The translations under genes were made by a program, and so were the position numbers. Shown one piece after another: positions 13,710-32,834 of a DNA stretch of 59,824 bases. The DNA lies in NCBI GenBank assembly GCA_026461385.1, contig JAPJNB010000248.1, positions 1 to 59,824 of the forward strand, in the 5' to 3' direction. The stretch is from Akkermansiaceae bacterium (lineage in GTDB: Bacteria > Verrucomicrobiota > Verrucomicrobiia > Verrucomicrobiales > Akkermansiaceae). The first letter of the stretch is position 1. Every line of letters starts with the position of its first letter. The notes under the pieces are model-generated. The model saw only the letters and a list, made by a program, of their open reading frames with translations. It was not told the origin of the DNA and did no database searches.

Positions 13710-14468
13710 CTAACGACGGATTTGTTTCAATAACCTGATGGCCCTTTGCCCCGGGACCACTTCACGCAAGCGCCATTTAAGGACAACAAAAATGAAATAA
13801 GGCCCATAGATAAAATATCTTTTAAAAAGCCGTTTGGGTTCAACAAAAAACCGCCAAAACCATTCTAAATGAATGCGCCTTAAAATTAAAGGCGCACGCT
13901 GAACATTTTCAGATAGATAGTCGAGCAAAGCCCCGATACCAAGACAAACGGTCGGATTTAGCCGATCACGGTATCTCATAATCCATTTTTCCTGCCGCGG
14001 AACTCCCATTGCTACAAGCAATAATTGAGCACCGGATTGATTAATCCTGGAAATAACTTTTTCATCGTTTTCAAAATACCCATGGTGCGTACCGGCAATG
14101 AGGACATCAGGGACCAGTTCCTTTAATTTTTCTGCGGCCTTATCGGCGATTCCAGGTTTACCGCCCAAAAGAAAAATTTGATAACCCGCCTTTGAAGCCG
14201 ATGATATACAGATCGGAGAAAAATCAGAGCCGTTGCAATTTTCTTTCATCTGGCCACCTAGAATCCATGTCCCGATTCTTAGTCCGATTCCGTCGGGCAA
14301 GACCAGATCAGCCTGATCTAAAATTTCTCTGTAATGAGCATCTTGATCGGCCTGATAAACACAATAGGCATTAAGAAAAAAAATAGTTTTTTTGGTTTTA
14401 AGAAACAGTGCCTGCATTATCAATGATAAAGCATCTTTTATTTCTATATTGTCATACAAAATATTCAT
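13710..14468 (-). CDS. WecG/TagA/CpsF family glycosyltransferase
   Basis: The 252-residue protein has all the family landmarks: FLNAYCVYQA, LPDGIGLRIG near residue 80, FLLGGKPGIADKA, a central MGVPRQEKW, GIGALLDYL, RAPLILRRIHLEWFWR and a basic C-terminus with EPKRLFKRY. Members transfer N-acetylmannosamine or a related sugar from UDP-sugar to a lipid-linked acceptor on the inner membrane face, in teichoic acid, enterobacterial common antigen or exopolysaccharide synthesis. It follows the GT2 gene by 17 bp. It is much more AT-rich than the chromosome around it, so it was probably acquired. Confidence 0.92.
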   Translation of the reverse strand: MNILYDNIEIKDALSLIMQALFLKTKKTIFFLNAYCVYQADQDAHYREILDQADLVLPDGIGLRIGTWILGGQMKENCNGSDFSPICISSASKAGYQIFLLGGKPGIADKAAEKLKELVPDVLIAGTHHGYFENDEKVISRINQSGAQLLLVAMGVPRQEKWIMRYRDRLNPTVCLGIGALLDYLSENVQRAPLILRRIHLEWFWRFFVEPKRLFKRYFIYGPYFIFVVLKWRLREVVPGQRAIRLLKQIRR

Positions 14469-14485
14469 TAAGTTGATTTTTTATG

Positions 14486-15406
14486 CTATGATTGATTGCG
14501 CTTGATCCTTGTTATGCATCCTTTTAAGAAACCGAAACTCCAGAAAATAAGGCCAATAATGAAAAAAGGAAATACCTTGATAAAATTTAAATAGTGGACT
14601 GGACCAGCTTTAATAATTCGCCCTATGATTCGTGCAAACTTAACAAAAATAAATAAAGGAAAAAGAAAAATTGGAAAAACCCAGCGATAAATCATCGATG
14701 GGCTTAAGATTTTCCGGTAAATGATTACATATTTACCTAGCAATATCTGGTTTTGACGAAAACTATCCCAGTTTTCCCTGAAAATATGGTAAGCAACCGC
14801 CTCCGGAATAAACCACACATCGGTACTCCTCCCGATAATCAAGCTTAGAGAAACATCTTCAGATGCCCGGATTTCAGGGAAGCCACCTGCCTTGTTAAAG
14901 ACAGATCGGTCACAAAACATATTACAGGATGGAACCACGCCTATTTTATGTCTTTTCCCAACCGCGAGATATTCATTAAACTGTAGATACAATTGCGCAA
15001 CGGGCAGCGAATTGTGCTTTTGTGATTCCGCAACAAGCACGCCGCCACTCCCAAAAAGACACCCTTCTTTATGGGCAGTTATAATAGCCGAAAGCCATGT
15101 TCTTTCAATATAAACATCGCTATCAATAAAAATCAAAATTTCGCCCTTGGCTTCCTTGGCACCCAGATTGCGCGCTATGGCTGGCCATGTTTTTTGGGGG
15201 AGTTCTATCAGTTTGACTTTTTCTTGTTGGTATTTTTTTAAAGAAATACGACCCTGATCTTTGTCAGATGAATCAACAATAATTACATCTAAAATACAAT
15301 CAAAATCGGTTTGTTCAAAAATACTTTCCAACGTCAAGGAAACAGTCTTCGATGAGTTGTATGAAGGAACAATAAAACTGACTTTTGGTTTTAAGATGGG
15401 CGGCAT
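14486..15406 (-). CDS. Family 2 glycosyltransferase
   Basis: The 306-residue protein starts with the GT-A fold hallmark VSFIVPSYNSS, then DVIIVDSSDKDQG, and has the metal/nucleotide motif FIDSDVYI near residue 95. The C-terminal third has two hydrophobic segments (YRWVFPIFLFPLFIFV and FIKVFPFFIIGLIFWSF), so it is membrane-bound. It probably adds a sugar to a lipid-linked surface glycan together with the following WecG-like gene. AT content is high throughout (under 40% GC by eye), with frequent AAA and TTT codons foreign to the neighbours, a sign of transfer. Confidence 0.9.
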   Translation of the reverse strand: MPPILKPKVSFIVPSYNSSKTVSLTLESIFEQTDFDCILDVIIVDSSDKDQGRISLKKYQQEKVKLIELPQKTWPAIARNLGAKEAKGEILIFIDSDVYIERTWLSAIITAHKEGCLFGSGGVLVAESQKHNSLPVAQLYLQFNEYLAVGKRHKIGVVPSCNMFCDRSVFNKAGGFPEIRASEDVSLSLIIGRSTDVWFIPEAVAYHIFRENWDSFRQNQILLGKYVIIYRKILSPSMIYRWVFPIFLFPLFIFVKFARIIGRIIKAGPVHYLNFIKVFPFFIIGLIFWSFGFLKGCITRIKRNQS

Positions 15407-15608
15407 CAGGAAATGGAAAATAAAGTTTATGTTTACTTTTTAAATATTTTTATAACTTGAAGTTACAATTATGATTGTGAGTTAATTTTTCATTCAAACC
15501 ATAAATTCACGCGTCATAAAAAACATACTACACAATTTCAAAGCTGGATTCAAGCAGCTAATGCCAATTCAATTGAAATTGCCCTTTTTAATATCTTAGA
15601 AAAACAAG

Positions 15609-15873
15609 GCCCGTCGAGATTTGACTGGGTAACGGGCTGAAACTTGCAGGCCTTCGGATGATCTTGAATCGATACGATGCGAATCGGCTTGGGCTTGTAG
15701 GAAAGTTGTCCACAAGGTTTAAATGCGAGAATGCGCCCGTTGGAAGCTCGTCGGAGCAGCGGGTTCTTGTGGCCAAGGGCCAGGCCACAGTCTCAGGCGA
15801 CTGCCTGACGGTTAACATCCCCGAAACGTGCTAGAATCTTTGGCTGAAAGTGGAATGATCTCACCACTTTTTT
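15609..15873 (+). ncRNA. Candidate structured RNA of unknown class
   Basis: The gap 15407-15920 changes abruptly from very AT-rich (to about 15600) to about 53% GC, with nested complementarity. GCCCGT (15609) pairs with ACGGGC (15632). GGCTTGG (15686) pairs with CCAAG-GCC (15773). CCACAAG (15710) pairs with CTTGTGG (15766), enclosing CCCG/CGGG and GCTC/GAGC helices. A terminator hairpin with a T-run closes the stretch on the plus strand. A 76-codon minus-strand frame (15588-15818) has no recognisable content. It does not match RNase P, tmRNA, SRP RNA or 6S RNA patterns I know. Strand and ends are inferred. Confidence 0.35.
15847..15873 (+). terminator. Rho-independent terminator
   Basis: AAAGTGG (15847-15853) pairs with CCACTTT (15864-15870) around a 10-base loop, and three more T follow. 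No plus-strand gene lies upstream, which supports an RNA gene ending here. Read on the other strand it could also end the winged-helix gene transcript, whose stop is at 15921. Confidence 0.55.
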
Positions 15874-15920
15874 AGGGATTAGAACGCACACGTTCCGTCA
15901 CGTTTGATTGAGTGAACGAA

Positions 15921-16163
15921 TCAGGCTTTGCGATAAGCGGCGGCCCTGCCTTTTCCTTGGGGCATCAAGAAACCTTTTTTAACCAACTGCCCAAGCCGCT
16001 TGCGGACACTTTCACGAAGGGCACCTGTAGCAGCCATGACATCAGCCATCGTAACAAGCCCCTGCTCCTCCACCCGGTCAAGGATCGCGCGCTCATGGAC
16101 ACCGAGAAGGCGTGGGGAGAATCGAAGCTCGTTCGGTTCGGGAAGCATCAGTGGATTGCTCAT
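15921..16163 (-). CDS. Small winged-helix DNA-binding protein
   Basis: 80 residues. After a short N-terminal tail, residues 22-78 read as a winged helix: HERAILDRVEEQGLVTMADV forms helix 1 and the turn, RESVRKRLGQLVKKGFL the recognition helix and helix 3, and PQGKGRAAAYR the basic wing. It is probably a small transcription regulator, but neither target nor ligand can be read. It is the rightmost gene of the accessory stretch, transcribed away from bactofilin. The gap to bactofilin (16164-16390) shows no further feature. Confidence 0.65.
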   Translation of the reverse strand: MSNPLMLPEPNELRFSPRLLGVHERAILDRVEEQGLVTMADVMAATGALRESVRKRLGQLVKKGFLMPQGKGRAAAYRKA

Positions 16164-30995: not shown

Positions 30996-32834
30996 TCAGT
31001 CGTGGAGATAGGTGCGCGGACGATAGAGCATCGCGAACGGAATGAAAAGCAGCGTCGTCGCGAGGATCAGCACGGTGAAGAACCGGAAGTAGGCGGCCCC
31101 CTCGAGCTTGCTTTGCCCGCCGGAGAATTCGGTGAGCGCAAAACCGGCCTCGGCAGGTTTTTCATGAATCCCCAGCGCTGCCTTCCGCCGAACTAACCAA
31201 GTGTTGGTGTCCGGCGCAGAGCCGCTGTCCATTTTTTCAAGGATGATACCAATGTCCCACTCAGTCTTATTTTTCCGATCTGGCCCCGCGCTGGAAATCC
31301 GCGCATGGGACGAATCGATGAGATGGTAAACCAACGGATTGCCCCAAGGGTCTTTGGCATTGCCGATCGTTTTAGCTCCAGCCTCATCCGCTGGGAAGGC
31401 CTCTTTGGAAACCGCTTCAATCCGGCTCGCCGCGCCGAGAAACTCAGTGCGTCCCGGGATTTCTAACGATTCAAGGCGTCCTTGCTGGCAGCGCGCGACG
31501 AGATCATCGGCCGTGCCAGTCACGCCATCATACCCCGGCAAGGTGATGGTGCGAGGCGATGCCTGCCAATCCAGGGGAAGCTGTGCCGTCGCCTGCTCGA
31601 ACTGCCTCGTCCCAGCCGAGGAAATGTCGATCATGTGATTAACCTGCGCGGTGAATTGATTCCCACCCCACACGGCGAGCCAAAACAAAGCCATGATCCA
31701 TGACTTCATCGCCTTGGGGGATTGAGTGTAGGCAAATTCAAGCCCAACAATCGACACCATGATCTCTGACGCGGTGATGATGACATAGGCGAGCATTTGC
31801 CAACCAATGGACGGCCGCTGTCCGGAGTCGATCCACGACTGGATCAACGTGGTGAGAGCAAACGACGCTGCGATCAAAGCCAATCCGATGCCGATCTTGC
31901 GCAGCGGCGTCAGATGAAACACTCGATTCATCCATGGATAAATGATGAAGGTGAACAACGGGATGAACAGGAGGATCAGAATCGGGTTGACCGCTTGGAT
32001 CTGCGACTCGAGCCAATGAATCCCCATGAAATTTAGGTTCATTTGCTCCGCCTGAAACACCCAAGAAGAACCCGTTTGATCGTAAAGCGACCAAAACACA
32101 GCGATGAAGGCGAACAAAGGAACCAACTTGCAAACCGCCACGATTCCCTCACGGGAAAACGCCTCCTTGAAGAATGCTTTGCCCGAAGCAGGAATGTGGA
32201 CAAACCGATTCCGTCCCATCCAGAACATGAAGGTCGCGATCGCCATGAGAACCCCCGGAACCCCGAAAGCCCAATGCGGTCCATGATTTTCTAACAACCA
32301 TGGTGTTAGCAAGGTGGAAAAGAACGAACCAAAGTTGATGGCGAAGTAGAACCAATTGTAAACTTTGGAGATCAAGTGGTGGTTATTCTTGCCGAATTGA
32401 TCACCCACATGAGCAGAGACGCAGGGCTTGATTCCTCCGGAACCTAGACAAATCAGGCCGAGTCCCATGCCCAACCACATCGACGAATGCCCATAGGATC
32501 CCATGCAAGCAAGCGCTGCATGACCGAGGCAATAGACGATCGAAAGCCAAAGGATCGTCCGATATTTTCCAAAGAAAATGTCCGCGATCAAGGCACCGAG
32601 AAGCGGCGTGAAATACACCCAACTCGCGAACTGATGATACGCCTCCACCGCTTGATTGGCCGACAACGCCTGCCCGCCAGTGCCATCCATGAGATGCAGG
32701 TATTGCGCCATGAACACGACGAGAATCGTGCGCATGCCATAGAACGAGAAGCGTTCCGCCGCTTCGTTCCCGATGATGAACGGAATGCCTGGCGGCATCT
32801 GATCGGTTTCCAATGGCGCGGAACGGTGGGACAT
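30996..32834 (-). CDS. POT-family proton-coupled peptide transporter with an inserted domain
   Basis: 612 residues. The POT signature EAAERFSFYGMRTI is near residue 24, GGIKPCVSAHVGDQFG near 133 and FYFAINFGSFFS near 162. The helices continue to about residue 396. Between this point and the last helix (about 581-605) lies a soluble insert of roughly 180 residues. It contains PGYDGVTGTADDL and DPWGNPLVYHLIDSSHARIS, then SAGPDRKNKTEWDI, the pattern of the C-terminal domain of type II pseudopilin GspG. POT proteins import di- and tripeptides with protons. The insert should face the periplasm if helix numbering is conventional, but this is inference. Confidence 0.9.
   Translation of the reverse strand: MSHRSAPLETDQMPPGIPFIIGNEAAERFSFYGMRTILVVFMAQYLHLMDGTGGQALSANQAVEAYHQFASWVYFTPLLGALIADIFFGKYRTILWLSIVYCLGHAALACMGSYGHSSMWLGMGLGLICLGSGGIKPCVSAHVGDQFGKNNHHLISKVYNWFYFAINFGSFFSTLLTPWLLENHGPHWAFGVPGVLMAIATFMFWMGRNRFVHIPASGKAFFKEAFSREGIVAVCKLVPLFAFIAVFWSLYDQTGSSWVFQAEQMNLNFMGIHWLESQIQAVNPILILLFIPLFTFIIYPWMNRVFHLTPLRKIGIGLALIAASFALTTLIQSWIDSGQRPSIGWQMLAYVIITASEIMVSIVGLEFAYTQSPKAMKSWIMALFWLAVWGGNQFTAQVNHMIDISSAGTRQFEQATAQLPLDWQASPRTITLPGYDGVTGTADDLVARCQQGRLESLEIPGRTEFLGAASRIEAVSKEAFPADEAGAKTIGNAKDPWGNPLVYHLIDSSHARISSAGPDRKNKTEWDIGIILEKMDSGSAPDTNTWLVRRKAALGIHEKPAEAGFALTEFSGGQSKLEGAAYFRFFTVLILATTLLFIPFAMLYRPRTYLHD

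Follow-up and report, generated by a model that had tools for sequence, protein, structure and literature searches.

The gene at positions 30996-32834 (minus strand) of the window, by which is meant the whole stretch of 59,824 nucleotides of DNA that was analysed, encodes a peptide transporter of the POT family with a domain inserted between its last two membrane helices, TM11 and TM12, and this domain is homologous to the head of GspG, the major pseudopilin of type II secretion. The most probable role of the insert is that of an accessory domain in the periplasm, folded with calcium, which would correspond to the extracellular domain of PepT1/PepT2 but have arisen separately, and we read the distribution of the insert as a single gain within Verrucomicrobiales after which it was kept. 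The features of the transporter itself are:

30996-32834, minus strand: POT/PTR2 proton-coupled oligopeptide symporter with an inserted, predicted periplasmic domain, 612 aa (ORF, Pfam, PDB match, AlphaFold2)
32748-32765, minus strand: ExxERF motif of TM1, residues 24-29 (invariant in the 75-row alignment A4; aligned with PepTSo)
31629-31715, minus strand: TM11, residues 374-402, preceding the insert (AlphaFold2 helix 374-402)
31026-31097, minus strand: TM12, residues 580-603 (AlphaFold2 helix 580-603)

The reading frame begins with ATG and runs unbroken for 612 codons. A preliminary description had called the product a POT peptide transporter, which is borne out by its match to Pfam PTR2 (E 5e-81, 273 bits against a curated cut-off of 27); in the Pfam scan of the whole protein PTR2 alone was found, and the extra part had no match. 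The closest solved sequence in a PDB sequence search is PepTSo of Shewanella (2xut/4uvm, E 9.8e-100), the POT of 6ei3 matching at E 3e-89, and Foldseek places PepTSo 4uvm and 6ei3 at the top when given the full-length AlphaFold2 model, which was built from a 75-row alignment (pLDDT 87.7, pTM 0.89) and has twelve membrane helices with the extra domain between helices 374-402 and 580-603. Aligned with PepTSo, the window protein has E24, E27, R28, K136 and E357, of which K136 is at least 90% conserved and the other four invariant in the 75-row alignment A4. It keeps intact the canonical residues of the family, namely ExxERF on TM1, the lysine of TM4 and the glutamate of TM10, which we take to be the functional ones, and would import di- and tripeptides together with protons across the inner membrane, in the manner of PepTSo and PepT. 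PepTSo and the 6ei3 POT, its nearest relatives of solved structure in both sequence and fold, align with it at ExxERF, K136 and the TM10 glutamate but have no domain between TM11 and TM12, whereas the model of the window protein has no HA/HB helix pair between TM6 and TM7.

The insert and its parts map as follows:

31104-31628, minus strand: inserted, predicted periplasmic domain, residues 403-577 (a loop of 5-9 residues in insertless orthologues; conserved in 75 aligned relatives)
31503-31535, minus strand: first calcium-loop-like motif, GYDGVTGTADD, residues 434-444, in the N-terminal beta hairpin (hhalign against GspG)
31230-31451, minus strand: GspG-head-like core, with predicted helices 462-475 and 483-490 and strands 502-505, 510-515 and 528-535 (AlphaFold2, VIA-align to 3g20, hhalign)
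31335-31352, minus strand: DPWGNP signature, residues 495-500 (aligned with the DPWG of GspG)
31251-31292, minus strand: second calcium-loop motif, SAGPDRKNKTEWDI, residues 515-528, the putative equivalent of the GspG calcium loop (aligned with that loop)
31176-31202, minus strand: conserved WLxRRK helix, residues 545-553, following the head (AlphaFold2 helix 546-553; W546 in 105 of 106 inserts)

The extra domain had been placed at residues 397-575, before the last helix, and comparison with insertless orthologues now sets it close by, at 403-577. Among 158 aligned transporters, TM11 and TM12 are separated by 5-9 residues where the insert is lacking and by 123-201 where it is present, the one exception being L064, whose frame breaks in TM11. 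In POT proteins of the usual topology the TM11-TM12 loop is periplasmic, and for this reason the insert should be periplasmic too; it probably keeps a single orientation at the outer side of the membrane, and the pTM of the full-length model suggests a defined placement of the domain.

The homology to GspG was established by profile comparison. When 75 inserts were compared by hhalign with 16 GspG proteins of Verrucomicrobiales (31 loci tried, 19 passing a motif filter, 16 used), a probability of 96.6 and a score of 63.3 over 55 columns were obtained, while the 21 controls gave 18.4 (reversed GspG) and at most 20.8 (20 column shuffles). With the AlphaFold2 model of the insert alone (pLDDT 84.1), VIA-align returned as its top six structures only (pseudo)pilins (3g20, 3soj, 4lw9 EpsG, 5g2f, 4noa and 1qve), unrelated structures reaching Z 4.4 at most; the first of the six is GspG 3g20, with 72 aligned residues, 2.3 A, 26% identity and a Z of 6.7, which is middling, since by the tool's own note a Z under 8 may mean a common arrangement, so that the assignment to GspG is carried by the agreement of the (pseudo)pilin family together with the sequence profile. 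VIA-align re-aligns Foldseek's own candidates only, and Foldseek alone returned no match to the insert model at E<=0.001, PilE 4noa standing at rank 28; the structural kinship with pilins rests, therefore, on VIA-align and hhalign. GspG 3g20 also came first in PDB profile searches (A1 and A5), at E values of 0.26 and 0.55 that are not significant alone. Pfam T2SSG was matched at E<=0.01 by 16 of 75 inserts in one set and 5 of 33 in another, and no insert of either set matched any other Pfam family; the window's own insert falls under the cut-offs both of T2SSG (E 0.047, 14.2 bits against 21) and of TIGR01710 (12.1 bits against 88.85). The GspG-type reading had originally been drawn from three motifs, which do stand where they were placed (DPWGNP at 495-500, SAGPDRKNKTEWDI at 515-528 and PGYDGVTGTADDL at 433-445), and both the profile comparison and the structure comparison proposed with it uphold it, the predicted fold being pilin-like.

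The insert shares with GspG/PulG the head fold, the DPWGNP strand and a calcium loop of the form S-x-G-x-D-x7-D, and differs in being embedded in a transporter and in what surrounds the head. Neither a prepilin cleavage motif nor an N-terminal filament helix was found in residues 403-577, which begin after TM11, and both are present in the GspG of the window's genome (L151); the insert is therefore a borrowed head and not a pseudopilin. It adds to the GspG plan an N-terminal hairpin with another loop and the WLxRRK helix, the latter having no counterpart in the GspG alignment.

The signature is well conserved among 106 inserts (D495 in 98, W497 in 94, G498 in 97), and so is the second loop, with S515 in 103, G517 in all 106, D519 in 102, T524 in 100 and D527 in 102 of the 106 distinct inserts; judged from the alignment, G517, D519, T524 and D527 would be the conserved counterparts of the residues of the GspG calcium loop. 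The identities of the calcium ligands in that loop are reportedly described in work by Korotkov in 2009 and Lopez-Castilla in 2017. The first loop, which is covered by PGYDGVTGTADDL, has the consensus GxDGxxGTxDD and is degraded or missing in some inserts (G434 in 97, D436 in 92 and D443 in 91 of 106), and its likeness to the GspG calcium loop appears in the alignment of residues 426-452 with GspG (hhalign probability 85.5, score 27.5, none of 100 shuffles scoring above 14.5). The insert probably binds calcium through one or both of these loops. Among the roles first proposed for it, namely the binding of peptides, of calcium or of an envelope partner, sequence backing was obtained for the calcium loop. 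Calcium is cited as critical for the folding and assembly of PulG, a GspG homologue (PMC6692295). An origin of the two hairpins by internal duplication is possible: in register they score 12.9, a value set against one of 60 shuffles that reached 13.3 and against equal scores (12.8-13.3) of windows overlapping the second hairpin (starts 499-511). In six proteins of the genus codes g210 and g215 (L156-L159, L168 and L171) the insert is reduced to 123-127 residues, the first hairpin being gone and the DPWGNP strand degenerate, with the second loop kept.

Other POT proteins with the insert, a search for which had been proposed, were found widely in the window's family, and their distribution and tree were mapped. 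A scan of named genomes passed 239 stretches, of which the best 80 were kept, and in 74 of these 80 loci a single frame covers the entire protein, the other six being split or cut (L064, L080, L104, L105, L107 and L111). Named hosts among the best 80 of 239 include Luteolibacter marinus, Haloferula rosea and Verrucomicrobiaceae bacterium E54, alongside many MAGs of Akkermansiaceae, Roseibacillus and Rubritalea. The suspicion that the domain might be a mis-annotated fusion absent from close relatives falls away, since close relatives have it, in most cases in frame; the insertion is not a product of chance or of an assembly fusion. As to the split copies, L064:3847-5680 (Luteolibacter pohnpeiensis KCTC 22041) consists of two overlapping frames with a break in TM11 just before the insert, either real or an assembly error, and L111 (Rubritalea profundi SAORIC-165), L080, L107 and L040 are two-frame splits at differing places.

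Within the window's family a transporter match was found in 133 of 145 sampled genomes and was end-to-end (start <=11, end >=605) in at least 93 of them by hand count. In genus code g18, probably Akkermansia itself, the match ends at about residue 409 among the matches listed, and five g18 transporters (L163, L164, L165, L169 and L170) have no insert. Orthologues that lack the insert are found in other parts of the class, where the first 402 residues show 52-62% identity, and in a few members of the order (L031-L035). In a phylum-wide sample the insert profile was matched at E<=1e-5 in 20 of 387 genomes: fifteen belong to the window's family, at 7.7e-31 or better, and the other five match weakly (2.7e-6 to 7e-6), through short open frames that, where they could be read, are prepilins or an anchored head.

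The presence of the insert changes on one branch of the transporter tree. In this tree, a quick one of 87 sequences over 396 membrane-part columns with the insert excluded, a single state change separates 59 proteins with the insert from 28 without (SH-aLRT 99), and none of 500 shuffles did as well. The rows were chosen from 158 so as to include all insertless proteins, all odd forms and about every third of the others, and one branch is very long (L160, 7.75). With the outgroup rooting, this change can be read as a single gain, with no loss among the rows included.

The insert may have come from GspG or from one of the anchored GspG-head proteins of Verrucomicrobiota (L042, L043, L046, L047, L048 and L149), which match it as strongly as GspG does (probability 96.7, score 64.7). 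The latter are stand-alone, one-helix proteins with no prepilin motif, unlike the insert, which is embedded in a transporter. In four of five loci their genes lie directly after a DUF1501 gene, namely L242 (G004:C1), L244 (G402:C28; DUF1800 confirmed before the DUF1501 gene), L245 (G024:C111) and L246 (G010:C176); the fifth, L243, lies elsewhere. These anchored non-pilin heads are a second use of the GspG-like head outside filaments.

The insert is under purifying selection. Among 11 sequences (55 pairs, many saturated), its dN/dS, where dS could be estimated, is 0.07-0.46, mostly above that of the membrane part and well below 1, so that it is constrained even though it changes faster. It could be supposed that a domain landed in a permissive loop and was kept mainly because it folds harmlessly or stabilises the protein. 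The faster change, seen also in the identity to the window, for which the membrane part exceeds the insert in every listed insert-bearing relative but L160, would suit this, as would the trimming of the insert in g215 and the minimal impact on transport of the mammalian extracellular domain insertion, as given in PMC4597091. Yet the low dN/dS and the near-invariant residues in 106 inserts of a deep clade, the absence of any secondary loss over 59 rows and the persistence of the calcium loop in the shortest inserts make such tolerance improbable.

One syntenic copy, adjoining fabH in G466 (L231:7931-9676, G466:C105; an open frame of 592 residues), carries the changes E27G, R28Q, D252S, Q253H, N283K and E366A and keeps E24, K136 and E357; its identity to the window is 37% in the insert and 33% in the membrane part, the opposite of all others. 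No second copy like it was seen among the matches listed for 73 genomes of the genus. Either the role of the insert outlasts transport here or, this being a single genome, the gene is decaying; the loss of transporter residues with better retention of the insert fits a role partly separate from transport.

As regards function, we tentatively prefer a domain with an accessory role, probably that of docking, at the periplasmic side of the importer. In an ancestor within Verrucomicrobiales the periplasmic TM11-TM12 loop would have been replaced once by a GspG-like head lacking the filament-forming helix, and this head, standing beside the importer mouth, would by analogy dock a periplasmic partner such as a peptidase or other envelope protein. 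The accessory or docking job at the mouth, which is argued from analogy, would be the least certain of these steps. Open reading frames place fabH and thyA on either side of the transporter in the window, and no constant neighbour gene was found by tblastn over 81 loci, some with short flanks (fabH in 35, thyA in 2); there is therefore no operon that points to a peptidase.

The main rival, which we hold to be rather unlikely, is a regulatory or gating cap, with the calcium-bound head lying across the outer openings of both bundles and tuning transport or entry by periplasmic calcium or peptide. The pTM of 0.89 would be compatible with such a cap, near-invariant W546, G572 and G573 come after the head, and conserved clade-specific residues (111, 112, 115, 120, 187, 277, 332 and 336) cluster in the TM3-TM4 loop and at the outer ends of TM4, TM6, TM8 and TM9, that is, in both bundles. 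The clade-specific positions of the membrane part lie on the outer side in 8 of 12 cases (p 0.03, ranging over 0.03-0.065 with the threshold), a borderline enrichment for which the converse outer-face test gave a similar figure at one threshold; it was set aside as a specific sign of head packing, and that the head packs on the transporter is weakly suggested by these sequence comparisons. The insert is, moreover, far more variable than the membrane part, which would be unusual in a gate, and short forms of 123-127 aa (e.g., L156 and L158) do without the first loop.

A further explanation invokes type II secretion, whose machine would recognise the GspG-like head and so place the importer where secreted proteases free peptides. 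The head is a GspG homologue, GspG is common in the group (PF08334 matched at E<=1e-5 in 115 of 145 family genomes), and 18 of 20 g18 genomes have no PF08334 match at E<=0.001, g18 being the genus with the five insertless transporters. Against this, PF08334 is not matched at E<=1e-5 in several insert-bearing genomes, including four whose completeness is 92% or more (G451, 95%; G476, 96%; G474, 92%; G487, 92%), the insert has no filament-forming helix and the window transporter is not adjacent to secretion genes, so that we consider this explanation very doubtful. In its obligate form the link is unlikely, as the co-occurrence test went against it, a test in which the incompleteness of MAGs could hide GspG. 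It is about as remote a prospect that Verrucomicrobiales turned a filament-head fold into a module for interaction and placed it in a peptide importer, so that uptake is coupled physically, and switched by calcium, to the source of the peptides, a peptidase or a secretion system that recognises the GspG fold; if that were so, the anchored heads that stand alone would be another instance in which this module is employed.

The accessory-domain reading draws on PepT1/PepT2 (SLC15A1/A2), which are, like the window protein, POT proteins with a folded extracellular domain in the C-bundle and no HA/HB helices. As described in PMC4597091, their domain comprises two immunoglobulin-like domains between TM9 and TM10, its removal hardly affects transport, and it binds trypsin, which the authors call a hypothesis requiring in vivo work. 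The window insert lies between TM11 and TM12 and is pilin-like, and the difference in loop and fold therefore implies an independent gain; the comparison is one of working principle, by analogy, and not of membership. It suggests that bacteria, like mammals with PepT1, have put an outer accessory domain into a peptide transporter.

No description of a POT protein with a pseudopilin-like insert was found in the literature searched, subscription papers being mostly outside its coverage. Folded domains inside a transporter core appear to be rare, and the 2015 PepT1/PepT2 paper presents its case as the first such structure to its authors' knowledge (PMC4597091). The insert is an independent bacterial case in the POT family, in another loop and with another fold, and an instance of a pseudopilin head used outside filaments; with natural insertless orthologues at 52-62% identity as ready controls, it lends itself to the study of why outer domains are gained by peptide importers.

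Two minor observations were made. In the insertless POT proteins L164, L166, L170 and L045 the stretch between TM6 and TM7 measures 96-140 residues, compared with 23 in the insert-bearing form. At positions 14001-16000 of the window G+C falls to 0.399, from about 0.56 in the surroundings.
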